Position numbers and translations under genes: made by a program. This document shows, in pieces, positions 1 through 25,325 of a stretch of 64,000 bases of DNA. Location of the stretch: assembly GCF_026914265.1 (NCBI RefSeq), contig NC_069127.1, forward strand, positions 24,628,637 through 24,692,636. The letters are read 5' to 3'. The notes below the pieces were generated by a model. That model did no database searches. It saw nothing but the letters and a program-made list of their open reading frames with translations, and had not been told where the DNA came from. How positions within the stretch are numbered: position 1 is the stretch's first letter; each line of letters starts with the position of its first letter. This stretch comes from Mya arenaria. Lineage: Eukaryota; Mollusca; Bivalvia; Myida; Myidae.

Positions 1-743
1 TTCAATTATTGATCTTATTCTTATCCTTAGATGTGCCTCATTGATTTCATTCAGCCAATTGGTCAGCTGAATATACAGGTCGATCAAAAGACTCAGATTG
101 AACTTGAATTTAATTTAACCCTTAGGCTGCTGATGGCGATTTTAAAGGCTTTACAAACAGCTTGGAACCAGACCAGACTCCGAGTAACTCGATGCCTGGT
201 CTGGTTCTAAGCTGTTTGCCACTCAGTCAATATATCCCCAAAGTTAAGTAAATTGAAAGAAATTTAGAATAAACCAGACGACATTTTTGAGCAGACGACA
301 ATTTACCCAGCATGCAAAAGGTTAAGATTAGAAACGAAGTTGCTTATTGAATATGGCATCCGATAGCATTTATATTACTGTGGTATGTCCACCGGTTGTA
401 TGAGGAGATGTGGGTTCAATCACTACAAGATGCATATACATGTACTGTAGCAATAAGAGCAGCTCTTTGCAATCTAGTCAACTGGATTTTGGGAGTAGGA
501 TATGAAACTATTTTAAGCTTTAAAATGCACTGAAGTTAGCATTTTGTTTGTTATATCGGTATTTATTTCCTAATATAGTCTCATTTTGTGATTAAATGTA
601 CCTTTGTGATTATGAGATTTAAGATAGCATAACTCTTTAGATGAATGATTGTAGGTCTTATTTACAGTACTATTATATTTCCTATATGGCAATAGTTTGA
701 AGCATTCTACAATTACATGAGATTCTCTGTATTTATGTTTCAG
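1..743 (+). other. STRAP intron sequence (no coding exon seen)
   Basis: No exon-like stretch is visible before the acceptor at 741-743. The first visible STRAP exon begins with a partial codon, so upstream coding exons must lie left of the window and this stretch is taken to be intron. Apart from the fold-back repeat nothing else is recognised. Confidence 0.6.
155..217. repeat. Fold-back (inverted) repeat in STRAP intron
   Basis: Two arms of about 22 bp (155-176 and 196-217) are near-perfect reverse complements around a loop that itself contains CGAGTAACTCG. The sequence lies in the intron upstream of the first visible STRAP exon. It looks like the end of a bivalve interspersed repeat; the outer limits of that repeat cannot be fixed here. 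Confidence 0.6.
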
Positions 744-2044
744 ACTTGACAAGATAAAGGATTTTGAATCTCCGACCCAGATCACCACAGCGAGCCTCCA
801 CCCTGACAAGACCATCTTCATCTCTGGAGGCGAGAACTTCATCATGTACAAGTCAGACTTCAACACAGGAGAGGAACTTGGTAGGTTGGACGGGTTTTAA
901 GCTCTTCTAAGCCCAAAGAGCTCAGCATTAGCTAATGTGATAGGTGATTGTCTGTCATCTGACCTCATCCGTCTGTCCCTCGCCAATATTTTTCTTCAAA
1001 CATCTTCTTCAAGATCAAAAAAAGTTGAAAAATTAGCACAAGCCGGCAAGCCCAGCTATGGTGAATTACCTTCTTGGCTTGCTAAAATTATGGATTTCAT
1101 ATACATGTAGACAGGCTTGTTGAAAAAAATATTGATGCCTAGTACACGAGTAAGAATTACCAGTGTGTGTATACCACGTGATAAATTACGTCAAAAATGC
1201 TACGTCGGAAGGCAACATTTTGCATAAAATGAAGACTTAAATCAAAGATAACTTTTCAATAACAATTTTAAATAAAACAAAAGGCAGTCTATGCCGCTTA
1301 AAGAGCCCAGCATTTGTTTTACTACCAAAATTTTATAAGATCATTTGTTTCATCAAACCTGTTTCCAAAATAATGTTTTGACAGTGCTCCGTCAGACGGC
1401 CGTATTGTGAAAAGGTTTGTCGAAGTGGTTTAAGAAACTAAACTCTCAATCAAACTCTGGTAAAAGATCGAAGGCAGGGCTCCTTAAGTGGCGTGGACTG
1501 CGCTGTGTTTCATTTAAAATGGTGAAGAAGTAGTGAAGAAATCTTTGTTTGAAGTTGATTTTCAAATCAAAATATTGCCGTCCGACGTACCATTTATAAC
1601 GCAATTTATCACGTGGTATAGACACACTGATTACAGCTTGCTTTTTTGGGAGTCAAATTTTGAGGACTGCTTAAGTATGGAAAAGAAACACAAATGCAGA
1701 AATTCTTATCTAATAATTTTGTAAATGTATATCAATCACAATTTAAATCTCCAAATAAGAAAATTTTCAACTGCTATCAATGTGCTGCCTTGTTAACTAG
1801 TTAGTACATATGCAAAATAACATTTACATATTACCATCTTACAGAGGCATTCAAGGGTCACTTCGGTTCTGTCCACTGTGTACGATTCTCTCCCGATGGC
1901 GAGGTGTATGCCAGTGGTAGCGAGGATGGAACACTACGACTCTGGCAGACAACAGTTGGCAAAACTTATGGCCTCTGGAAATGTGTCACCCCAGACGAGA
2001 TTGTGAACAATACTGACTCAACTCCAACAAAGCCCGAAGCCTAG
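744..2044 (+). CDS. STRAP: STRAP, serine-threonine kinase receptor-associated WD40 protein (C-terminal part)
   Basis: Two coding exons: 744-880 (acceptor tttcag, donor gtaggt) and 1845-2044 (acceptor ttacag, stop TAG 2042-2044). They encode about 111 residues. Recognisable pieces are [52 protein letters not shown] and [18 protein letters not shown], which are the last two WD40 repeats and tail of STRAP. STRAP is a WD40 scaffold linked to TGF-beta receptor signalling and to the SMN/Unrip complex in mRNP assembly; that role is family knowledge. The acidic C-terminal tail seen in vertebrates is shortened here to about 15 residues ending KPEA. The 5' exons lie outside the window. The intron at 881-1844 carries a short inverted-repeat element. 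Confidence 0.93.
1161..1629. mobile_element. MITE-like element with ~55-bp terminal inverted repeats
   Basis: The left end CAGTGTGTGTATACCACGTG and the right end are imperfect reverse complements over about 55 bp, including a CACGTGATAAATT block in both. The element is 469 bp and is flanked by the direct repeat ATTAC (1156-1160 and 1630-1634), a 5-bp target-site duplication. It sits inside the STRAP intron and has no coding capacity. The superfamily cannot be assigned from the sequence alone. Confidence 0.85.
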
Positions 2045-6106: not shown

Positions 6107-9100
6107 CTACTCTGCTGGTTCAAAGGTGTAGTGAACGTTCCGTTGAGGGTTAGGCGGGGGATATCTGCCCTTATAATAATATTTATTTTTGTCGAACTCC
6201 TGGTACGGGTATTGCTTTTTCATCTGAAAACAAAAATACAGATTTTTCTTCACCATTGAAATGTTGTGTCATATAAGAAACGAGGGAACAAATACTTTAC
6301 ATAAGCCCATAATTTTACTATTTAATATTAGGATAGAAATAATGTTTTACTTCATAGTTATTTCTTTCAGTTCAATAATAATATGACAAAAGCCGCTGCT
6401 CGTCTGTTTCCAGGGTAGAAATCAGTACTGGGTCCGTATAACTTCAGAATTAAGAAAACTTTACAAATTTTAAAGGGACTTGCCCATGATCTGTAAAATG
6501 CACTTTTTTATTAATGGGTTTCAGCTCTTTGTTGTTGTGTTATTGGTTGATTGAAATGGGTGTTATGGGTGTTATCAATGCATTGTTAAAGGTAAAAGTA
6601 TAAATTTCTGTTGTATACTTCCAGTCATTGAAATTGGACTTTCGGATGAACAAGCCCGAATTCTTATACTATTGCATGGAATCATATTTTTGAACAAGCC
6701 CTGCTATATAAAATTCAGAATTTGAGCAAGCCCGGAAGACATTTTACCAGTGCAGGGCTTGCAGACCACTGTACTTCCTAGTTGTTAAAATGTTGGTTTC
6801 CAATTATTTTTTAATGGTAAAGGTGTGGGTTTGCATCCCTGTAAAACCAAAATATTTTTTATATACTTAAATTGCATTTTTTTCTGCAATTTGGATATGA
6901 TAGAGTTAAATATAAATGATAAAATAAGTGTTTTCAGATCCATAACTGGGAAAACTAAATGTTGGTTCAAAAACATGAGCAGGTCCCTTGAACTTATAAC
7001 TGTAAAGAGTAAAATATCGAAATTGTTGTATTTCTTGAAAAACTAATTCTCTTATGGCTAGTTTTTTTAAATTTTGCGTTTCCATAGTATAATTGAAGAA
7101 ACAAACTTTCCACCAGTGTAATAAAACAGATAAGGAAATTGTTGAATTTAAAGAAAAGTTACAATTTAAACTTAAGATGCTTCTGTAATACGGTTGCAGG
7201 TGTCCATTTAAAACCCATGATAAAGTGCTCCTGGTAAGGATTAAACCAATAACATCTTGGGTGAGACAAGGACATCTTAATCAGTAGACTACCCAACCCT
7301 GAGGAGAAAACACATATACCACGAGACCATTCACACCCTGGACAGGATCAAACCCACAACCCCCTGTGTGAGAGGAGGACACATATACCACGAGACCATT
7401 CACATTGTCGACAGGATCAAACCAACAACCCCTTGTGTCAGAGGAGGACACATATACCATGAGACCATTCACATTCTGGACAGGATCAAACCAACAACCC
7501 CTTGTGTGAGAGGAGGACACATATACCACGAGACCATTCACATTCTGGACAGGATCAAACCAACAACCCCTTGTGTCAGAGGAGGACACATATACCAAGA
7601 GACCATTCACATTCTGGACGGGATCAAACCCACAACCCCTTGTGTGAGAGGAGGACACATATACCAAGAGACCATTCACACCCTGGACGGGATCAAACCC
7701 ACAACCCCTTGTGTGGGAGGAGGACACATATACCACGAGACCATTCACATTCTGGACGGGATCAAACCCACAACCCCTTGTGTAAGAGGAGGACACATAT
7801 ACCAAGAGACCATTCACATTCTGGACGGGATCAAACCCACAACCCCTTATGTAAGAGGAGGACACATATACCACGAGACTATTCACATTCTGGACAGGAT
7901 CAAACCCACAACCCCTTGTGTGAGAGGAGGACACATATACCACGAGACCATTCACATTCTGGACGGGATCAAACCCACAACCCCTTGTGTAAGAGGAGGA
8001 CACATATACCAAGAGACCATTCACACCCTGGACAGGATCAAACCCACAACCCCCTGTGTGAGAGGAGAACACATATACCAAGAGACCATTCACATTCTGG
8101 ACGGGATCAAACCCACAACCCCTTGTGTAAGAGGAGGACACATATACCAAGAGACCATTCACACCCTGGACAGGATCAAACCCACAACCCCCTGTGTGAG
8201 AGGAGAACACATATACCAAGAGACCATTCACATTCTGGACAGGATCAAACCCACAACCCCTTGTGTGGGAGGAGGACACATATACCAAGAGACCATTCAC
8301 ATTCTGGACGGGATCAAACCCACAACCCCTTGTGTCAGAGGAGGACACATATACCACGAGACTATTCACATTCTGGACAGGATCAAACCCACAACCCCTT
8401 GTGTAAGAGGAGGACACATATACCAAGAGACCATTCACACCCTGGACAGGATCAAACCCACAACCCCCTGTGTGAGAGGAGAACACATATACCAAGAGAC
8501 CATTCACATTCTGGACGGGATCAAACCCACAACCCCTTGTGTCAGAGGAGGACACATATACCAAGAGACCATTCACATTCTGGACAGGATCAAACCCACA
8601 ACCCCTTGTGTGAGAGGAGGACACATATACCAAGAGACCATTCACACCCTGGACAGGATCAAACCCACAACCCCCTGTGTGAGAGGAGAACACATATACC
8701 ACGAGACTATTCACATTCTGGACAGAATCAAACCCACAACCCCCTGTGTGGGAGGAGGACACATATACCACGAGACCATTCACACCCTGGACAGGATCAA
8801 ACCAACAACCCCTTGTGTGAGAGGAGGACACATATACCACGAGACTATTCACATTCTGGACAGGATCAAACCCACAACCCCTTGTGTCAGAGGAGGACAC
8901 ATATACCACGAGACTATTCACATTCTGGACAGGATCAAACCCACAACCCCTTGTGTAAGAGGAGGACACATATACCAAGAGACCATTCACACCCTGGACG
9001 GGATCAAACCCACAACCCCCTGTGTGAGAGGGGGACACATATACCATGAGACCATTCACACCCTGGACGGGATCAAACCAACAACCCCTTGTGTGGGAGG

Positions 9101-12100
9101 AGGACACATATACCACAAGACCATTCACACCCTGGACGGGATCAAACCCACAACCCCTTGTGTGGGAGGAGGACACATATACCACGAGACCATTCACACC
9201 CTGGACAGGATCAAACCAACAACCCCTTGTGTGAGAGGAGGACACATATACCACAAGACCATTCACATTCTGGACGGGATCAAACCCACAACCCCTTGTG
9301 TGGGAGGAGGACACATATACCACGAGACCATTCACACCCTGGACAGGATCAAACCCACAACCCCTTGTGTGAGAGGAGGACAAATATACCACGAGACCAT
9401 TCACATTCTGGACAGGATCAAACCCACAACCCCTTGTGTCAGAGGAGGACACATATACCACGAGACCATTCACATTCTGGACAGGATCAAACCCACAACC
9501 TCTTGTGTGGGAGGAGGACACATATACCACAAGACCATTCACATTCTGGACAGGATCAAACCCACAACCTCTTGTGTGGGAGGAGGACACATATACCACG
9601 AGACCATTCACATTCTGGACAGGATCAGACCCACAACCCCTTGTGTGGGAGGAGGACACATATACCACGAGACCATTCACATTCTGGACGGGATCAAACC
9701 CACAACCCCCTGTGTGGGAGGAGGACACATATACCACGAGACCATTCACATTCTGGACGGGATCAAACCCACAACCCCCTGTGTGGGAGGAGGACACATA
9801 TACCACGAGACCATTCACACCCTGGACGGGATCAAACCCACAACCCCTTGTGTGGGAGGAGGACACATATACCACGAGACCATTCACACCCTGGACGGGA
9901 TCAAACCCACAACCCCCTGTGTGGGAGGAGGACACATATACCACGAGACCATTCACACCCTGGACAGGATCAAACCCACAACCCCCTGTGTGGGAGGAGG
10001 ACACATATACCACGAGACCATTCACACTCTGGACAGGATCAAACCCACAACCCCTTGTGTGGGAGGAGGACACATATACCACGAGACCATTCACACCCTG
10101 GACAGGATCAAACCCACAACCCCTTGTGTGGGAGGAGGACACATATACCACGAGACCATTCACACCCTGGACAGGATCAAACCCACAACCCCCTGTGTGG
10201 GAGGAGGACACATATACCACGAGACCATTCACATTCTGGACAGGATCAAACCCACAACCCCTTGTGTAAGAGGAGGACACATATACCAAGAGACCATTCA
10301 CATTCTGGACAGGATCAAACCCACAACCCCTTGTGTCAGAGGAGGACACATATACCACGAGACTATTCACATTCTGGACAGGATCAAACCCACAACCCCC
10401 TGTGTGGGAGGAGGACACATATACCACGAGACCATTCACATTCTGGACAGGATCAAACCCACAACCCCTTGTGTCAGAGGAGGACACATATACCACGAGA
10501 CCATTCACATTCTGGACAGGATCAAACCCACAACCCCTTGTGTAAGAGGAGGACACATATACCACGAGACCATTCACATTCTGGACGGGATCAAACCCAC
10601 AACCCCTTGTGTAAGAGGAGGACACATATACCACGAGACCATTCACATCCTGGACGGGATCAAACCCACAACCCCTTGTGTAAGAGGAGGACACATATAC
10701 CACAAGACCATTCACATTCTGGACAGGATCAAACCCACAACCCCTTGTGTAAGAGGACGACACATATACCATGAGACCATTCACATTCTGGACAGGATCA
10801 AACCCACAACCCCTTGTGTAAGAGGAGGACACATATACCAAGAGACCATTCACATTCTGGACAGGATCAAACCAACAACCCCTTGTGTAAGAGGAGGACA
10901 CATATACCACGAGACCATTCACACCCTGGACGGGATCAAACCCACAACCCCCTGTGTGGGAGGAGGACACATATACCACGAGACCATTCACACCCTGGAC
11001 AGGATCAAACCCACAACCCCTTGTGTAAGAGGAGGACACATATACCACGAGATCATTTACACCCTGGACGGGATCAAACCCACAACCCCCTGTGTAAGAG
11101 GAGGACACATATACCACGAGACCATTCACATTCTGGACAGGATCAAACCCACAACCCCTTGTGTAAGAGGAGGACACATATACCACGAGACCATTCACAC
11201 CCTGGACGGGATCAAACCCACAACCCCTTGTGTAAGAGGAGGACACATATACCACGAGACCATTCACACCCTGAACGGGATCAAACCCACAACCCCTTGT
11301 GTAAGAGGAGGACACATATACCACGAGACTATTCACATTCTGGACAGGATCAAACCCACAACCCCTTGTGTAAGAGGAGGACACATATACCACGAGACCA
11401 TTCACACCCTGGACGGGATCAAACCCACAACCCCCTGTGTGAGAGGAGGACACATATACCATGAGACCATTCACACCCTGGACGGGATCAAACCCACAAC
11501 CCCTTGTGTGGGAGGAGGACACATATACCACGAGACCATTCACACCCTGGACGGGATCAAACCCACAACCCCTTGTGTGGGAGGAGGACACATATACCAC
11601 GAGACCATTCACACCCTGGACGGGATCAAACCCACAACCCCCTGTGTGGGAGGAGGACACATATACCACGAGACCATTCACACCCTGGACAGGATCAAAC
11701 CCACAACCCCCTGTGTGGGAGGAGGACACATATACCACGAGACCATTCACATTCTGGACAGGATCAAACCCACAACCCCCTGTGTGGGAGGAGGACACAT
11801 ATACCACGAGACCATTCACACCCTGGACAGGATCAAACCCACAACCCCCTGTGTGGGAGGAGGACACATATACCACGAGACCATTCACATTCTGGACAGG
11901 ATCAAACCCACAACCCCTTGTGTAAGAGGAGGACACATATACCACGAGACTATTCACATTCTGGACAGGATCAAACCAACAACCCCTTGTGTGAGAGGAG
12001 AACACATATACCACGAGACTATTCACATTCTGGACAGGATCAAACCAACAACCCCTTGTGTGAGAGGAGGACACATATACCACGAGACTATTCACATTCT

Positions 12101-15100
12101 GGACAGGATCAAACCCACAACCCCCTGTGTGAGAGGAGAACACATATACCAAGAGACCAGTCACATTCTCAACAGGATCAAACCCACAACCCCCTGTGTG
12201 AGAGGAGGACACATATACCACGAGACCATTCACACCCTGGACAGGATCAAACCCACAACCCCTTGTGTGAGAGGAGGACACATATACCACAAGACCATTC
12301 ACACCCTGGACGGGATCAAACCCACAACCCCTTGTGTGAAAGGAGGACACATATACCACGAGACCATTCACACCCTGGACAGGATCAAACCAACAACCCC
12401 TTGTGTGAGAGGAGGACACATATACCACAAGACCATTCACATTCTGGACGGGATCAAACCCACAACCCCTTGTGTGGGAGGAGGACACATATACCACGAG
12501 ACCATTCACGCCCTGGACAGGATCAAACCCACAACCCCTTGTGTGAGAGGAGGACAAATATACCACGAGACCATTCACATTCTGGACAGGATCAAACCCA
12601 CAACCCCTTGTGTCAGAGGAGGACACATATACCACGAGACCATTCACATTCTGGACAGGATCAAACCCACAACCTCTTGTGTGGGAGGAGGACACATATA
12701 CCACAAGACCATTCACATTCTGGACAGGATCAAACCCACAACCCCTTGTGTGGGAGGAGGACACATATACCACGAGACCATTCACATTCTGGACAGGATC
12801 AGACCAACAACCCCTTGTGTGGGAGGAGGACACATATACCACGAGACCATTCACATTCTGGACGGGATCAAACCCACAACCCCCTGTGTGGGAGGAGGAC
12901 ACATATACCATGAGACCATTCACACCCTGGACGGGATCAAACCCACAACCCCTTGTGTGGGAGGAGGACACATATACCACGAGACCATTCACACCCTGGA
13001 CGGGATCAAACCCACAACCCCTTGTGTGGGAGGAGGACACATATACCACGAGACCATTCACACCCTGGACGGGATCAAACCCACAACCCCCTGTGTGGGA
13101 GGAGGACACATATACCACGAGACCATTCACACCCTGGACAGGATCAAACCCACAACCCCCTGTGTGGGAGGAGGACACATATACCACGAGACCATTCACA
13201 TTCTGGACAGGATCAAACCCACAACCCCTTGTGTGGGAGGAGGACACATATACCACGAGACCATTCACACCCTGGACAGGATCAAACCCACAACCCCCTG
13301 TGTGGGAGGAGGACACATATACCACGAGACCATTCACATTCTGGACAGGATCAAACCCACAACCCCTTGTGTAAGAGGAGGACACATATACCAAGAGACC
13401 ATTCACATTCTGGACAGGATCAAACCCACAACCCCTTGTGTCAGAGGAGGACACATATACCACGAGACTATTCACATTCTGGACAGGATCAAACCCACAA
13501 CCCCCTGTGTGGGAGGAGGACACATATACCACGAGACCATTCACATTCTGGACAGGATCAAACCCACAACCCCTTGTGTCAGAGGAGGACACATATACCA
13601 CGAGACCATTCACATTCTGGACAGGATCAAACCCACAACCCCTTGTGTAAGAGGAGGACACATATACCACGAGACCATTCACATTCTGGACAGGATCAAA
13701 CCCACAACCCCTTGTGTAAGAGGAGGACACATATACCACGAGACCATTCACATCCTGGACGGGATCAAACCCACAACCCCTTGTGTAAGAGGAGGACACA
13801 TATACCACAAGACCATTCACATTCTGGACAGGATCAAACCCACAACCCCTTGTGTAAGAGGACGACACATATACCATGAGACCATTCACATTCTGGACAG
13901 GATCAAACCCACAACCCCTTGTGTAAGAGGAGGACACATATACCAAGAGACCATTCACATTCTGGACAGGATCAAACCCACAACCCCTTGTGTAAGAGGA
14001 GGACACATATACCACGAGACCATTCACACCCTGGACGGGATCAAACCCACAACCCCCTGTGTGGGAGGAGGACACATATACCACGAGACCATTCACACCC
14101 TGGACAGGATCAAACCCACAACCCCTTGTGTAAGAGGAGGACACATATACCACGAGACCATTCACACCCTGGACGGGATCAAACCCACAACCCCCTGTGT
14201 AAGAGGAGGACACATATACCACGAGACCATTCACATTCTGGACAGGATCAAACCCACAACCCCTTGTGTAAGAGGAGGACACATATACCACGAGACCATT
14301 CACACCCTGGACGGGATCAAACCCACAACCCCTTGTGTAAGAGGAGGACACATATACCACGAGACCATTCACACCCTGAACGGGATCAAACCCACAACCC
14401 CTTGTGTAAGAGGAGGACACATATACCACGAGACTATTCACATTCTGGACAGGATCAAACCCACAACCCCTTGTGTAAGAGGAGGACACATATACCACGA
14501 GACCATTCACACCCTGGACGGGATCAAACCCACAACCCCCTGTGTGAGAGGAGGACACATATACCATGAGACCATTCACACCCTGGACGGGATCAAACCA
14601 ACAACCCCTTGTGTGGGAGGAGGACACATATACCACAAGACCATTCACACCCTGGACGGGATCAAACCCACAACCCCTTGTGTGGGAGGAGGACACATAT
14701 ACCACGAGACCATTCACACCCTGGACGGGATCAAACCCACAACCCCCTGTGTGGGAGGAGGACACATATACCACGAGACCATTCACACCCTGGACAGGAT
14801 CAAACCCACAACCCCCTGTGTGGGAGGAGGACACATATACCACGAGACCATTCACATTCTGGACAGGATCAAACCCACAACCCCTTGTGTAAGAGGAGGA
14901 CACATATACCACGAGACCATTCACACCCTGGACAGGATCAAACCCACAACCCCCTGTGTGGGAGGAGGACACATATACCACGAGACCATTCACATTCTGG
15001 ACAGGATCAAACCCACAACCCCTTGTGTAAGAGGAGGACACATATACCACGAGACTATTCACATTCTGGACAGGATCAAACCAACAACCCCTTGTGTGAG

Positions 15101-18100
15101 AGGAGAACACATATACCACGAGACTATTCACATTCTGGACAGGATCAAACCAACAACCCCTTGTGTGAGAGGAGGACACATATACCACGAGACTATTCAC
15201 ATTCTGGACAGGATCAAACCCACAACCCCCTGTGTGAGAGGAGAACACATATACCAAGAGACCAGTCACATTCTCAACAGGATCAAACCCACAACCCCCT
15301 GTGTGAGAGGAGGACACATATACCACGAGACCATTCACACCCTGGACAGGATCAAACCCACAACCCCTTGTGTGAGAGGAGGACACATATACCACGAGAC
15401 CATTCACACCCTGGATGGGATCAATCCCACAACCCCTTGTGTGAAAGGAGGACACATATACCACAAGACCATTCACATTCTGGACAGGATCAAACCCAGT
15501 TAAAGGCAAAGCTCTCAAGAATTCTTGGTAAGGAAGGTCAAGACACCAAAGAAAGACCATGCTGACCATGACACTCTTATATTATGTATTTCATAGTCAT
15601 TACTTTGTTTTTAATTGTTATTGGGTTTTAGACCTAAGCCTGTGAAATCAATGGGATCATGCCACTTAATTAACTCCTTTGTAAATTAATAAGAGCTGTC
15701 ACAGAGACAGCGCGCTCGACTATTCCGCCGCTTTTCATAAAAATTTCATTGTAAAAATTGAATAGTTTTGCCGAAACATGCATGGATCACTGTATTAAGT
15801 CCAATTCAATAAATCAAGTAGTTGGTGAGATATTAACCTATATGTGCTTACATGCAAAACCTTGACCAGAATTTCTAAGTTGAATAATAAAGGGGCAAAA
15901 TTTATATTATATGCAAAATAGAGTTATCTAACTTGATAAATTAAGAAGGTTGAATGGCTGGGAGCCCATATATAAAGTTTCAATGCAATACATTATGTAT
16001 ATGCTGAGATATTGACTTAAATGTGGTTAAATGCAAAACCTTAACCAGAATTTCTATTTCGAACAAAAAAGGGCCATTATTTGAATTTAAGGCTATCTGA
16101 CTTGGTTATTTAAGTATGTTGGATGGTTAAGTACTATTGTATAAGGTGCTTACATTCAAAAACTGAACCAGAATTTCTTGGTCAAATAATATTGCCCATA
16201 AATTGCATTATATTCAAAAGAGTGTTATCTAACTTCATTAATTTAGTAGGTTAGATAGTTGGGAATACATATCTAAAATTTCAATGCAATACATGATTTA
16301 TTTGCTGAGATATTGACTTAAATGTGGTAACATGCAAAACCTTAACCAGAATTTCTAAGTTGAAAAATAAAGGGCAATTATTTTGCATTAAATGCAAACT
16401 AGAGTTATCTAACTTGGTAAATTAAGTAGGTTGGATGGTTGAGTACCAGTGTATAAAGTCTCAATGCAATACATCAAGTAGTTGCTGAGATATTAATCTA
16501 TGTGTACTTGATTAAATAATCATGTTGGATAGTTGGGAATACATATCTAAAGTTTCAATACAATACATGATGCATTTGCTGAGATAATGACCTAAAGGTG
16601 CTTACATTAAAAACCTTAAGGTGTGACGCCGCCGCCGACACCAACACCAACGCTCTGGTGAGTAGTATAGCTCTCCTTATCCTTCGAATAGTCTAGCTAA
16701 AAATACTACGGTTTTATTGATATAATACAACTAGACATCATGACCAACCTCACTTCAAAGTTTGGTGAACCTAGATCAAAGCATTCTCCTGATATTGCAC
16801 GGAAATATTTTTTTACATTAGAGGTCACAGCGACGTTGACCTTTGACCTTGTGACCCCCCAAAACATAGGAGTTTTCTAAACCTCATGATCAACCTCCCT
16901 ACCAAGTTTGGTGAACCTAGGTCAAACCATTCTCAAGATATTGAGCGGAAATGTTTTTTACATTGGGGGTCGCCGCGACCTTGACCTTTGACCTAGTGAC
17001 CCCAAAAACAATAGGGATCTTCTACACCTCATGACCAACCTCCCTACCAAGTTTGGTGAACCTAGGTCAAACCGTTCTCAAGATTTTGAGCAGAAATGTT
17101 TTTTATATTGGGGGTCGCCGCGACCTTGACCTTTGACCTAGTGACCCCAAAAACAATAGGGATCCTCTACACCTCACGACCAACCTCCCTACCAAATTTG
17201 GTGAACCTAGGTCAAACCATTCTCAAGATATTGAGCGGAAATGTTTTTTACATTGGGGGTCGCCGCGACCTTGACCTTTGACCTAGTGACCCCAAAAACA
17301 ATAGGGATCCTCTACACCTCACGACCAACCTCCCTACCAAGTTTGGTGAACCTAGGTCAAACCATTCTCAAGATATTGAGCGGAAATGTTTTTTACATTG
17401 GGGGTCGCCGCGACCTTGACCTTTGACCTAGTGACCCCAAAAACAATAGGGATCCTCTACACCTCACGACCAACCTCCCTACCAAGTTTGGTGAACCTAG
17501 GTCAAACCATTCTCAAGATATTGAGCGGAAATGTTTTTTACATTGGGGGTCGCCGCGACCTTGACCTTTGACCTAGTGACCCCAAAAACAATAGGGATCC
17601 TCTACACCTCACGACCAACCTCCCTACCAAGTTTGGTGAACCTAGGTCAAACCATTCTCAAGATATTGAGCGGAAATGTTTTTTACATTGGGGGTCGCCG
17701 CGACCTTGACCTTTGACCTAGTGACCCCAAAAACAATAGGGATCCTCTACACCTCACGACCAACCTCCCTACCAAGTTTGGTGAACCTAGGTCAAACCAT
17801 TCTCAAGATATTGAGCGGAAATGTTTTTTACATTGGGGGTCGCCGCGACCTTGACCTTTGACCTAGTGACCCCAAAAACAATAGGGATCTTCTACACCTC
17901 ATGACCAACCTCCCTACCAAGTTTGGTGAACCTAGGTCAAACCGTTCTCAAGATTTTGAGCAGAAATGTTTTTTATATTGGGGGTCGCCGCGACCTTGAC
18001 CTTTGACCTAGTGACCCCAAAAACAATAGGGATCCTCTACACCTCACGACCAACCTCCCTACCAAGTTTGGTGAACCTAGGTCAAACCATTCTCAAGATA

Positions 18101-21100
18101 TTGAGCGGAAATGTTTTTTACATTGGGGGTCGCCGCGACCTTGACCTTTGACCTAGTGACCCCAAAAACAATAGGGATCCTCTACACCTCACGACCAACC
18201 TCCCTACCAAGTTTGGTGAACCTAGGTCAAACCATTCTCAAGATATTGAGCGGAAATGTTTTTTACATTGGGGGTCGCCGCGACCTTGACCTTTGACCTA
18301 GTGTCCCCAAAAACAATACGGATCCTCTACACCTCACGACCAACCTCCCTACCAAGTTTGGTGAACCTAGGTCAAACCATTCTCAAGATATTGAGCGGAA
18401 ATGTTTTTTACATTGGGGGTCGCCGCGACCTTGACCTTTGACCTAGTGACCCCAAAAACAATAGGGATCTTCTACACCTCATGACCAACCTCCCTACCAA
18501 GTTTGGTGAACCTAGGTCAAACCATTGTCAAGATATTGAGCGGAAATGTTTTTTACATTGGGGGTCGCCGCGACCTTGACCTTTGACCTAGTGACCCCAA
18601 AAACAATAGGGATCTTCTACACCTCATGACCAACCTCCCTACCAAGTTTGGTGATCCTAGGTCATGCGGTTTTCCAGTTATCGATCGGAAACGAAGTGTG
18701 ACGTACGGACGGACTGACGGACTGACGGACTACCGGACTACCGGACTATCGGACTACCGGACTACCGGACTGACGGACAGGGCAAAAACAATATGTCTCC
18801 CCCAGAGAGGGGGAGACATAAATATCACTTACCATTTTAATAAACCAAACATCCGGATACATCGAATCGTAGAAAAAGGCCAGGACGGTCCCGAAGTAAA
18901 CAAACAAGAAGGCAGACCACATTTTCCACCTTAAAATAGATATGTGTCATGTAAATGCACTTCTAAAAAAATACTGTTGTTGCTACAAGGAGCATTACTC
19001 AACAAATATTAAAGTAATGATCTTTAATAAACATGATGCACATTCAATATCATACTGCTTTTTTTTGTATTTAAGGAGAATATAAATTCATTGCTAGATT
19101 TTCATACCCATCTGTCACCCCTCTTTTCTGCTTGTCTTAAATTTTATTGACTCAAATAAAAATGTTAAATTAGGGACTGTATTTGTGTACTGCCCGAAAA
19201 TAGTGTTTCATACCTACGATGTTGATGAATAATATTCACATGTAAAAAAGGAGAAATGTTAACATCGTGTACATAATTCGTCTAGAAACACGGTTCCTTA
19301 TGCAAAAAGAAAGAGTATGAACATATATTCAACTGTGAAATCTGTTTTCTTATAGAATCTGAATACTGTTTGCTGTAGAAGTGGAATGGGGCATCCCTTA
19401 CTTCGGCCTAAAGCTTCTTTGAAAACAAATATACTCAAAGGTACATACTGGGAAAAGCGATAGCGCCTTGCTGGGTCAACTCTGTCAGCGTGGATGATGT
19501 CCATATTAATGGGTACCTGTAAAATATTGCATAGTAATTATTTACTTATGACACAATCTCAACATGTCTCTCGTCTTAAATGATGAACAGCAGACTGGAT
19601 TAAAGTTCACAAGGCCTCTAAAAAAGAAATAAAAAACCCCACATGATTATTGAGAGCACCAATGCCCTTTATAATATTAAAGATGCACTCTTACTCCCAA
19701 ATCAATACAATTGTTTTCTTTCCTTAAAAAGATGATATATAAATAGCAAAAACAATGGTTCTTTTGATGATTAATTTGAAAAAGGGTGCAGAAAACACGG
19801 GATATCTACCCTATGAGACAAACTTTGATCTTTATAAATCCTTCAGGACCCACCTCATTCAATATTTGTGTGTTTTCAGCTATTAATACACCATTACATT
19901 ATTTCTATCTGATAATCAGTAGTTCATATTTACCATAAATGCGTTATCTAGTAAGTAATTAAAGGTTCATCACTCAGAATTTATGCTCGTTGTATTGATT
20001 TTAAATATTAGTATCACTTAAAGACTTTAACATAAAATATTATGCTATACAAGCATGTAGTGGATTTGCAAACTGACAACACTGTCATGTGAACATACAA
20101 ATGTACTAATTGCTAGACTATTTCAAAACACTAAATTTCTTCCAGAAGTCATTCCATAATAATCTGTCTCAGACTTTCAATCTGATCAGCATGTAAGAGG
20201 CAATTTTTTTCAGGCTTTATCTATAAAAAGCGCTAGGCAAATGGACAATGAATTGGTGAAGAAAAACACTGGTATTTTTTTTTCTGATTATAGGTATTTG
20301 AAAATAAATGATGATAATGTATATGTTTTACATGTATTGTTACGCATATTGCTGTAATTCAAAATTCCACCCAAAAGGGGTGAGAATATTATGTGTTGAG
20401 AGGGCAAAGGAACCTGCCCCCAAAGAATGAAAAGACTCCCTATATTAGGCCGAAAGGGCTTGTCTATATCAGTATAAAGGTGTAGCTACAATAATGAGCA
20501 ATCAGGGATACTTTTTTTATTATTTTGACATTCTTGTGTATCCCTGTAACGCTACAACTCTCTACCATTCAACACCGAATGAAGGAATATATCTTATTAT
20601 TATGCAACGATTTTGAATAATAATGACAAAGTTGTTCAATACATACCCCACAGTGATCTAAACTAGATTTAATTTGTCATAAGAGTCGGTTTTTTTCACA
20701 TAAATACATTCTAGGTCATGAATACCGTTACATGTGCATAAACTGTCTCATGATATCTGAACATATTTTCTTGGCATAATGACATAACTAAATATGTGTT
20801 TTAACAGTGTGCGAAATTAACGGTAGCCCGATCGCCCGTGGCGACGAAAAATTGACCCAGGCTACGAAAAAATCCTTTAAGGAAGCCCGACTGGCGATGA
20901 AATCATAGGGCTTGTTGGTTAAAAAAAATTGTCGGGTAAATGTTTACTTCGACACCGTTGACCGACTTCCGGATAATCTCTCATTGTTATGGATATTTTC
21001 TGTTGCAGTAATCTCCCTTGTCAAGCAATTATACGCTATGTACTGCTTGAAAATAATTATTTTGACGGAAATCATATTTCGGACTGTCGATACTTTTTTT

Positions 21101-22308
21101 TTGTTTTAGTGAGATATTAAAGTTTGGATGTTGTTTTTGTTGTGTGTTTTTTTTTTTAAATAAACTTGGATTATTTAGTCACCGAAAATTATGAAATAGA
21201 TGTTTGTAAAATCCTGTCACTAATGCCACCAGCAGCACATGTTGACAGGACTTCCAACCTTCCCCTTCATCAACAATCCAACTGCCTTGACAGAGCCAGC
21301 CCCCCCCCCCCCCCCCCCCATCGAACCACCACCAGCCCCCCTGCCCCCTGGCAACACAGGTTCACACAACCACCATACTTGCATTTTATACAAAATATAA
21401 TAAGATATTGTACAGTTGTCATATCATTCCTTGTTTTTAACCATATAAGGTACTAAAGATGCGTTTTTCTGTTTACCGGTGGGCTATGGAAATCTGGCTT
21501 GGGCTACAGAAATCTCAAAGTCTGTAGCCCAATTGGCTACCAGGTAAAAAAGGTTAATTTCGCACACTGTTTTAATAGTAGGCAATAATATTTTCGAATT
21601 TATAATGGAGATAATTTCAAAATTGTGTCCGCGAGGATTGTCTGCGCAAGGACCGTTCACTACTTTTTGAGGATTGTCTGCGCAAGGACCGTTCACTACT
21701 TTTTGCTGGGTGGATGTAACGAATCTGCCATGGTAAAAAAAATCATCAAAAGACTCGTTGACAGCCAGTTAGGTGGACTATATAAAGGTGGAGCAAAAAA
21801 GAATTGCTACAATGTAATGATGTAAACTAACAGGTTCTCCCCAGTTTCGTTTCCTGTATGGATCATCCCAGTTGTGGTAGGAATCTTTCTGATACTCTCC
21901 AATATTGGGCATATCCGGATAGTCGCCGTGTCTTATGTCCTCTGGCAACGGGTGATAGTCCTCAGGTGGCAGACCATACTTTTTGGCGGCTTCTTCATGC
22001 TCTTTTTGGTTCCGTGGTACGGCACTAGGCTTCCAATCGGTATGCCATGCTGCAAGATAATTAATGACAGAGTAAACGATTTTCTTGACAACAGCATTTA
22101 TCTTGTTTATCCGACTTTTTTGCTGTCCGAAAATGCAACGACATGAAGGTCATTCAATTTCGAAGTGGAAACTCTGTGTACTGCATAGTCTATTCGATAA
22201 ACCAAATCATTTACCTCCTAGCAAAGGTCTTGCAGTTGAAATTTTTCGAACCTGCAAAGACTGTCTTTTTAATGTACTTATAACCAGACTTGACCTAAAG
22301 GCAGCCAT
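6107..22308 (-). CDS. NDUFB8: NDUFB8, mitochondrial complex I accessory subunit (complete, five exons)
   Basis: Exons on the minus strand: 22308-22215, 22049-21832, 19516-19449, 18929-18833 and 6223-6107 (stop TAG 6109-6107). All have GT/AG borders and phases agree, giving 197 residues against about 186 in human. Residues 1-31 (MAAFRSSLVISTLKRQ...) are basic and acid-free, as in a mitochondrial presequence. Exon 2 carries EEAAKKYGLPPEDYHPLPED and GDYPDMPNIG, ending NWGEP. Exon 4 holds one hydrophobic span (MWSAFLFVYFGTVLAFFYDS). The last exon has the family motif KQYPY and ends NVHYTFEPAE. NDUFB8 is a supernumerary subunit of the membrane arm of NADH:ubiquinone oxidoreductase in the inner membrane (family knowledge). 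The last intron (18832-6224) is 12.6 kb and contains the 69-bp and 145-bp arrays. The start codon is the only ATG giving a presequence in frame. Confidence 0.94.
7195..7302 (-). mobile_element. tRNA-derived SINE, decayed, adjoining the 69-bp array
   Basis: Read on the minus strand, the sequence has an A-box-like TAGTCTACTGATTA, the block TCTCACCCAAGA and a B-box-like GGTTTAATCC. These are followed by the body start CCAGGAGCACTTTATCATGG and the block AAATGGACACC. The order is that of tRNA-headed mollusc SINEs. Its head aligns along nearly its whole length with the 69-bp monomer of the neighbouring array and has the same orientation. Confidence 0.7.
7303..15499 (-). repeat. 69-bp satellite array, 119 monomers, each a tRNA-like (SINE-head) unit
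   Basis: The marker ACACATATACC falls at 7310 and last at 15452, exactly 118 x 69 bp apart, so the array has 119 monomers and no net length change. On the minus strand each monomer contains TGGTCTCGTGG (close to a Pol III A box), then CTCTCACACAAGGGG, then GGTTTGATCCC (close to a B box). The A and B starts are 44 nt apart, the usual tRNA distance. Common variants occur at a handful of sites, for example ATTCTG/ACCCTG and CACGAG/CAAGAG. Longer blocks recur at 45 or 46 monomers. Both strands are stop-free across the array, but the variants change amino acids in either reading, so it is not called a gene. It lies inside the last NDUFB8 intron, in the gene's sense orientation. Confidence 0.93.
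15690..16705. mobile_element. Bivalve-type non-coding element with degenerate internal repeats
   Basis: It begins near GAGCTGTCACAGAGACAGCG followed by CTCGACTATTC and ends with AGTATAGCTCTCC...GAATAGTCTAGC. The CGACTATTC and GAATAGTCTAGC blocks are sub-terminal inverted repeats. The interior carries several degenerate copies of phrases such as ACCTTAACCAGAATTTC and GCTGAGATATTGAC. There is no ORF. It lies in the NDUFB8 intron between the two arrays. Its exact ends are uncertain. Confidence 0.6.
16741..18660 (+). repeat. 145-bp tandem array, about 13 units, each with a DR1 motif
   Basis: Units recur every 145 bp; the phrase starting GGGGGTCGCCGCGACCTTGA repeats from about 16966 to 18560, and the first unit near 16822 is more diverged. 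Every unit holds TGACCTTTGACCT, whose reverse complement AGGTCAAAGGTCA is a perfect direct repeat of AGGTCA with one-base spacing. The middle units are nearly identical, which points to recent amplification. The repeated 61-codon ORFs inside it are a by-product of the repeat. It lies in the last NDUFB8 intron. Confidence 0.92.
18661..18822 (+). mobile_element. Terminal segment of the 145-bp-repeat element
   Basis: After the last 145-bp unit come GATCGGAAACGAAGTGTGACG, a run of GACGGACT/ACCGGACT 9-mers (about 18705-18780), GGGCAAAAACAATATGTCTC and the palindromic end CTCCCCCAGAGAGGGGGAG. The same closing order, GACGGACAGGGCAAAAACA then ATATGTCTCCCC, closes a second copy at 53706. This shows that the array belongs to a dispersed element. 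It stops 11 bp before the donor of NDUFB8 exon 4 (18832). Confidence 0.75.
19676..19825. mobile_element. Fragment of TTAAAGATGCACTC-type element
   Basis: The phrase ATTAAAGATGCACTCTTACTC matches the terminus of the fuller element at 35811-36178. Only one end is visible, so this is a truncated copy in the NDUFB8 intron between exons 2 and 3. Confidence 0.5.
20805..21569. mobile_element. Inverted-repeat element with CAGTGTGCGAAATTAAC termini
   Basis: The left end CAGTGTGCGAAATTAAC and the right end GTTAATTTCGCACACTG are exact inverted repeats. Both sides are flanked by TTTTAA (20799-20804, 21570-21575), the probable target duplication. Phrases of the type 'GTAGCCC' lie inside both ends. The interior holds a C-rich run near 21300 and no credible ORF. 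The 765-bp element sits in an NDUFB8 intron. Confidence 0.85.
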
Positions 22309-24537: not shown

Positions 24538-25325
24538 TAAGCATAGCGTAATCAACGCTTTTCGGCAAATAGGGATCTTCCGCCCTATTTTCAATAGCGT
24601 AATCAACGCTTTTCGGCAAATAGGGATCTTCCGCCCTATTTACAATAGCGTAATCAACGCTTTTCGGCAAATAGGGATCTTCCGCCCTATTTTCAATAGC
24701 GTAATCAACGCTTTTCGGCAAATAGGGATCTTCCGCCCTATGTTCAATAGCGTAATCAACGCTTTTCGGCAAATAGGGATCTTCCGCCCTATGTTCAATA
24801 GCGTAACCAACGCTTTTCGGCAAATAGGGATCTTCCGCCCTATGTTCAATAGCGTAACCAACGTTTTTCGGCAAATAGGGACCTTCCGCCCTATGTTCAA
24901 TAGCGTAACCAACGCTTTTCGGCAAATAGGGACCTTCCGCCCTATTTTCGAAAGCGTAACCAACGCTTTTCGGCAAATAAGTATCTTCCGCCCTATTTTC
25001 GAAAGCGTAACCAACGCTTTTCGGCAAATAGGGATCTTCCGCCCTATTTTCAATAGCGTAACCAACGCTTTTCGGCAAATAGGGATCTTCCGCCCTATTT
25101 TTAATAGCGTAACCAACGCTTTTCGGCAAATAGGGATCTTCCGCCCTATTTTCAATAGCGTAACCAACGCTTTTCGGCAAATAGGGACCTTCCGCCCTAT
25201 TTTCAATAGCGTAACCAACGCTTTTCAGCAAAGGACATATCTTCCGCCGCATTTTCAATAGCGTTACTAACGCTTTTCAGCAAAAGAAGATCTTCTGTCA
25301 CATTTTCAATAGATTTACTAATGCC
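24538..25325. repeat. 51-bp tandem array, about 15 units, two hairpins per unit
   Basis: The phrase AGCGTAATCAACGCTTTT starts at 24545 and recurs every 51 bp to 25260. Each unit contains two inverted repeats: AGCGT-AATCA-ACGCT and AATAGGG-ATCTTCCG-CCCTATT. Common variants (AATCA/AACCA, GATCTT/GACCTT) fall in the loops. The last units are more diverged and a partial unit trails off near 25325. The unit is 17 codons long, so ORFs open on both strands, but no protein family is recognised. It lies between NDUFB8 and the first UCP gene. Confidence 0.92.

Follow-up and report, generated by a model that had tools for sequence, protein, structure and literature searches.

The stretch of DNA analysed here, called the window throughout, comprises the 64,000 nucleotides C6:24628637-24692636 of the 1.216-Gb, 18-contig genome of the bivalve Mya arenaria and carries on its minus strand, beside exon sequence of NDUFB8, a gene for a mitochondrial protein, an array of about 119 tandem 69-bp monomers, each corresponding to the tRNA-derived head of a short interspersed element (SINE). 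An earlier note, made from the letters of the window, had reported the repeat unit and its copy number, both of which were confirmed by Tandem Repeats Finder (TRF) with a call at positions 7310-15498 (period 69, 118.7 copies, 94% match); an nhmmer head model recovered 120 heads in the window, the terminal one included. Aligned to the SINE head, the window monomer is identical at 57/70 positions. Followed along the minus strand, the order of elements (Table 1) is a start at 15499 truncated within a head, some 119 homogeneous heads, a diverged head, a remnant of the SINE body and a dispersed domain. The terminal head scores 64 against the SINE head consensus and 52 against the array monomer, which fits an amplification located upstream of it. 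As for the body remnant, which runs from ACTTTATCATGG to AAATGGACAC, none of 10,000 shuffles aligns equally well. Homogenisation within the array is apparent from the presence of 61 distinct sequences among 118 monomers, and the two copies of the block repeated at a lag of 45 monomers share at least 98.5% identity in 690-bp windows and up to 99.9% over 690 bp.

Regarding the gene context, the array lies 24.6 Mb into an 83.6-Mb contig, between a firm NDUFB8 exon and a candidate last exon of this gene, which begins after the acceptor TTTTCAG and encodes KQYPYQEF..VHYTFEPAE followed by a stop. The earlier note had placed the array in an NDUFB8 intron and in the sense orientation; the orientation of the monomers and the minus-strand NDUFB8 exon hold up, and an intronic position sense to the gene is likely but unproven, the last exon being only a candidate. 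Indeed, the latter extends the alignment to vertebrate NDUFB8 only when the two exons are joined by an X spacer, it had no match in PDB or Pfam on its own, and a splice-site script found no middle NDUFB8 exon. On the plus strand, window positions 721-2044 hold a WD40 exon (Pfam E 1.7e-9), which was assigned to another gene and not to NDUFB8; this gene would be convergent with NDUFB8, and the open stretch beside its exon presumably resembles STRAP. Pfam matches to Egg_lysin and Ocnus, the latter within translated array sequence, were below the cut-off and were discarded. Besides, a second satellite-like array stands next to the first (window 16731-18664, 145-bp unit, 13.3 copies, 96%) and is followed by a ACGGACTA-type run at 18709-18778, and a 51-bp unit is repeated at window 24543-25312 (15.1 copies, 94%) with long open frames on both strands.

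Table 1. Position and strand of the features in the window, with the basis of each assignment
Feature	Position	Strand	Basis or remark
Candidate last NDUFB8 exon	6107..6224	-	two-exon alignment
Dispersed repeat domain 3' of the SINE body	7005..7193	-	recurrence at other loci
SINE-body remnant	7199..7229	-	short alignment, below nhmmer profile threshold
Terminal SINE head, diverged, adjoining the 3' end of the array	7230..7299	-	alignment to head consensus
Array of 69-bp monomers, each a SINE tRNA-derived head, ~119 copies	7303..15499	-	TRF, nhmmer head model, monomer columns
Sole minus-strand TTTT inside the array (Pol III-terminator-like), at its extreme 3' end	7307..7310	-	
Two copies of a ~2.7-kb block, offset by 45 monomers (3105 bp)	9690..15498	-	limits approximate
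NDUFB8 exon, firm	21820..22068	-	Pfam PF05821 (NDUF_B8 positions 11-94)

A dispersed SINE family with one to many heads

A search of the genome with the 69-bp unit, which the earlier note had proposed as a check, uncovered a dispersed family with at least 220 matches at E<=0.001, the window array among them; this number is a lower bound, and the listed matches outside the array, both on C6 and on further contigs, reach 81-85% identity. A 29-place pattern matched the genome 401 times (control 0), and a 36-mer spanning one unit found no match in IMG/VR. The repeat loci fetched from other places of the same genome, designated by L-numbers, were picked for their resemblance to either the window unit or a young head and form a non-random sample. 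In this family, the SINE consists of GGGTGAGAG, a tRNA-like head with the A and B boxes of an RNA polymerase III (Pol III) promoter, CAGGGGTACTTTCTCATGG..., the body and ATTAGTATAAACC, and single copies follow the order GGGTGAGAG, A box, B box, CCCACCAGGGGTACTTTCTCATGG and body. All 17 places initially fetched hold at least two heads, usually in steps of 69 or 68, and in three arrays read out the monomers include perfect A and B boxes, TGGTCTAGTGG and GGTTCGATCCC.

Sixteen loci with an isolated-looking match resolved into 13 single-headed SINEs with a common body, one head without recognised body (L084) and two multi-headed loci (L069 and L076). Flanking direct repeats at p<=0.01 were found in 7/13 single copies, three of which are one duplicated insertion, and the direct repeat of L065 matches the tail of a neighbouring SINE, so that good target-site duplications remain for four independent insertions. 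The same single-headed insertion with the same flanks occurs at three places on two contigs (L068, L073 and L075), which suggests that another sequence, duplicated or mobile, took this SINE along with it. Genome-wide and with up to 3 mismatches, 3,734 head-head and 1,117 head-body junctions were counted (control 0 for both), the former number being a lower bound for the family since the window consensus junction itself has more than 3 mismatches to the junction pattern; 80 exact head-head matches fall into 40 clusters on 14 contigs. Within one genome, head number ranges from single-headed SINEs through copies with 2-8 heads and arrays of tens to more than 100, most of them still joined to a body. 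Two further head arrays, L081 and L082 (C2:25.21 and 23.99 Mb), have a 54-bp unit corresponding to a shortened head and common flanks, one being probably a duplicate of the other.

The ends of the head runs indicate how these loci relate to the SINE. The 3' ends were counted in 30 multi-headed loci, window included, where the end of the run lies inside the fetched DNA, L021 and L025 being excluded as their 3' end runs off the locus. A SINE body follows the last head at 25/30 of these ends, 21 by the nhmmer profile, always on the same strand and at most 35 nt after the last head (L009 with the inner body part only), and 4 by short alignment (L020, L024, L085 and the window), where no more than 1/5,000 shuffles is as good. 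Once duplicated pairs (L013/L014, L020/L024, L081/L082 and L089/L090) are collapsed, the body is present at 19/26 ends by profile and at 22 with L020, L085 and the window, leaving 4 without. No same-strand body was found at a captured 5' end of the multi-headed loci, and the first head begins exactly at the SINE 5' end in 10/17 captured cases. Target-site duplications of multi-headed arrays were searched at 13 loci: the 4 heads and full body of L080 are flanked by a clear 12-bp direct repeat, L011 and L016 reach p 0.04 (L016 runs off the locus) and L083 p 0.07, the others being at chance level.

Regarding the domain that lies 3' of the body remnant in the window, its first ~62 bp recur at other listed loci, and L059 presents head, body and this domain in an order identical to that of the window. 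The domain is also present at L058 and L060-L064 without a nearby SINE head; it may be an element in its own right or a tail that SINEs have in common.

tRNA resemblance and promoter boxes

The tRNA-like character ascribed to the monomers in the earlier note is supported by their homology to the SINE head, whose closest relative among the 8 tRNA species recovered from the genome, a set short of all isoacceptors, is tRNA-Glu(CTC) (53 identical, z 8.6), and whose 11-nt A box is identical to that of the genome's tRNA-Glu genes. ARAGORN found no tRNA in the window, Rfam gave none there either at the gathering score or up to E=10, and an Rfam tRNA search of 17 related loci remained without match; Rfam matches to small nucleolar RNAs and microRNAs were far below gathering scores and were taken as chance. 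Neither unit is predicted to fold into a cloverleaf: the RNA of the window monomer folds worse than shuffles (z +1.9), and the SINE-head RNA folds better than its shuffles (z -3.0), into a long hairpin. The 5' GGGTGAGAG of the SINE head exactly complements CTCTCACCC in the anticodon-loop region; the predicted hairpin of the window monomer is shorter and no better than shuffles. Real tRNA gene clusters were located at C6:74.37 and 77.04 Mb, C9:13.15 Mb and C15:6.07-6.14 Mb, with a near-regular spacing of ~705-715 bp at C6 and C9 and an irregular one at C15.

As regards the promoter, TGGTCTCGTGG and GGTTTGATCCC occur 67 and 41 times, respectively, as exact minus-strand matches at a fixed phase of the array. 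At the expected phase, the A-like motif departs from TRGYNNARNGG by at most one mismatch in 99 cases, and the B-like motif from GGTTCGANNCC by at most one in 41 and at most two in 117, the starts of the two motifs being 44 nt apart. The orientation, tRNA spacing and SINE-head resemblance of these Pol III-type boxes are thus borne out. Compared with shuffled sequence, the monomer scores better but narrowly so, as 31/2000 dinucleotide shuffles match the box pair equally well (both strands, spacing 35-59 allowed); taken alone, the box pair is only moderately unusual. The SINE head has 0 mismatches to both box consensi and is equalled by 0/2000 shuffles, from which the box resemblance of the monomers is a matter of homology. 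Single-headed copies (n=14, including L068, L073, L075 and the L084 head) have a perfect A box in 14/14 cases and a perfect B box in 11/14. By comparison, a perfect A or B box is found in 0/116 scorable window heads (119 in total), and the B-box C, which corresponds to tRNA C56, a key contact of TFIIIC, is replaced by T in 119/119; this change is a CpG transition and is seen in other locus consensi as well. Elsewhere, both boxes are perfect in 34/307 scorable heads of the other multi-headed loci (508 in total), including 19/26 heads of L083 and 7/25 of L016. Inside the window array, the variability of the boxes is similar to that of the remaining monomer positions (minor alleles 3.8% vs 4.9%), and there is no box-specific constraint.

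That the monomers act as densely packed Pol III promoters finds no support in these counts, and the intact B box expected of an active Pol III/TFIIIC array, of the extra-TFIIIC (ETC) type, is absent from the 116 scorable heads; from the letters, the Pol III output of the array is probably nil or weak. The options previously put forward, namely SINE-head RNAs, a TFIIIC platform or inert DNA, did include a SINE-head origin but overlooked the terminal SINE body and the genome-wide family.

Growth of the array and rival explanations

The array is most likely a SINE-derived satellite, whose unit was amplified from the head at the DNA level and homogenised, and which would now be inert. The unit is a portion of a SINE dispersed in the genome, the terminal unit extends into that SINE, and heads are homogenised within loci. 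In the proposed course of events, a SINE whose head is of the tRNA(Glu) type would have inserted beside or in NDUFB8, in sense orientation, and its 69-nt head would then have been duplicated. As the head starts with GGGTGAG and ends with CAGGGG, the unit is delimited by a short GGG repeat, which could account for the 69-nt period. The array may subsequently have grown to about 119 homogenised copies through unequal exchange or replication slippage, the duplication of the ~2.7-kb block at a 45-monomer offset being a presumably late and large step. The A and B boxes are inherited from the SINE promoter and have decayed here; if intronic, the array would be carried in the NDUFB8 pre-mRNA and spliced out.

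Expansion in place is favoured by the conjunction of locus-wise clustering of heads, the lag-45 duplication and the greater divergence of multi-headed bodies. Heads were compared across 25 loci and 620 heads, setting aside L014, L024 and L082 (near-copies of L013, L020 and L081), L057 (a portion of the window) and any head spanning <58 positions of the model; the tabulation began at 3 heads per locus. In 497/620 cases a head is closest to another head of its own locus, and in 118/119 in the window, where similarity is 0.938 within the locus and 0.756 between loci; in several small or duplicated loci, no head has its nearest relative in its own locus. The bodies of multi-headed loci are 67-89% identical (n=14, L082 and L085-L092 not used) vs 86-98% for single-headed ones (n=11 independent, the insertion common to L068, L073 and L075 being counted once), with p 6e-5 for samples that come from different searches; with all 13 single copies, p is 2e-5.

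Several observations nonetheless weigh against this view. A recognisable body is missing at 5/30 captured 3' ends (L013, L014, L015, L022 and L087), 7/17 captured 5' ends begin elsewhere than at the SINE start, and the window array itself has no target-site duplication above chance and a 5' end truncated inside a head. In addition, an RNA-level gain of heads would account equally well for the L080 direct repeat and for first heads that start exactly at the SINE 5' end, and the GGG repeat would serve a template jump of reverse transcriptase just as well. Finally, across the 25 locus consensi, boxes changed at 47/550 positions vs 170/1225 for the rest (p 0.0013, gaps counted as changes), which could mean a promoter constraint on the arrays. 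Constraint on the source SINEs would also explain it: since these need their boxes to spread, conservation across loci need not reflect a function of the arrays.

One rival reading is that heads were first added in the course of retroposition, reverse transcriptase at the GGG of the SINE 5' end jumping to the head-end GGG of another SINE RNA. In favour of such a step, the two GGG runs lie one period apart, 10/17 first heads start right at the SINE 5' end and the four-headed L080 stands within a single direct repeat; yet heads cluster by locus, multi-headed bodies are more diverged than the single-headed ones sampled, albeit in samples chosen differently, and tens to more than 100 heads together with the lag-45 duplication need DNA-level expansion regardless. 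As the source of the array, this route is possible but doubtful, and it overlaps with DNA-level amplification in that a retropositional gain of heads may precede it. A related and rather unlikely alternative is that the SINE lineage gains and loses 5' promoter heads; L083 and other multi-headed copies whose boxes are intact would then be multi-promoter elements, better transcribed and retroposed, and the window array a decayed giant among them. Tandem 5' monomers serve mouse L1 in such a manner.

That the array is a working platform, where TFIIIC bound to many B-like boxes would drive Pol III transcription or set up a chromatin boundary within NDUFB8, is improbable. Both boxes stand at tRNA spacing in nearly every monomer, they are somewhat better conserved across locus consensi, perfect pairs are kept in L083 and L016, and the only TTTT closes the array at its 3' end. 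Against this stand the lack of any perfect box in the scorable window heads, the T that takes the place of C56 in all 119 heads and the absence of box-specific constraint within the array. Very improbable is the direct amplification of a tRNA gene into tandem genes or pseudogenes: the unit is near tRNA length, the SINE head has the A box of tRNA-Glu genes and real tRNA-Glu clusters exist in this genome, but no tRNA was recognised in the window or at the 17 related loci, the listed tRNA-Glu genes are hundreds of bases to kilobases apart, and the unit shares with the SINE head even the non-tRNA 5' end and is followed by the SINE body. A repetitive protein, suggested by open reading frames of 2762 codons (minus) and 2711 codons (plus) with one stop-free frame per strand, was rejected and has next to no probability, as 69 bp is 23 codons, so that the open frame of a founder tends to persist in near-identical copies, both strands are open and the monomer is the SINE head.

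Comparison with known satellites

Satellites derived from SINEs or tRNA-related regions are already known. In squamates, SINE-derived satellites (sSats) have been described by authors who were uncertain whether they are restricted to these reptiles (PMC10702118). As portrayed there, sSats resemble the Mya array in their tandem units cut from a tRNA-headed SINE, the longer terminal unit running to the SINE end, the short unit (67 nt in snakes), the number of units, up to ~1000, and the greater homogeneity of longer loci (PMC10702118). The snake unit differs in that it joins the box B-bearing 3' portion of the head to a section of the body (PMC10702118), whereas the Mya unit spans the entire head, both boxes included. 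According to the same source, squamate sSats prefer, without strictly requiring, subtelomeric or heterochromatic regions (PMC10702118); no such placement is apparent here, the window lying well inside its contig near a gene and the exact junction clusters being scattered over 14 contigs.

Satellite 1 of Xenopus laevis is transcribed by Pol III. This satellite and Hy/Pol III of Hydromantes, likened by description only, are tabulated as tandem repeats from a SINE-like tRNA-related region (PMC9659126, table entries). Among molluscs, PcH-Sat of Patella caerulea is likewise a satellite related to a SINE (Nin-SINE) but differs by its 179-bp unit, a truncated Nin-SINE lacking both boxes, and its mainly pericentromeric location (PMC11121367). 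Bivalve tRNA-derived SINEs have a similar layout of tRNA-related head, central domain and tail; tandem heads are not described in the SINE passages of that study, whose 13 mined species exclude Mya (PMC10294476). A literature search of titles and abstract openings, with subscription papers mostly outside its reach, returned no bivalve tandem-head SINE satellite. What is new here is a mollusc SINE satellite with a head-exact unit carrying both boxes, at many dispersed loci. It provides a clear case of SINEs turning into satellites, with many stages within one genome, and a caution that eukaryotic arrays rich in A and B boxes can be promoter fossils. The question of a restriction to squamates, left open in PMC10702118, is thereby answered for the genome of Mya arenaria.

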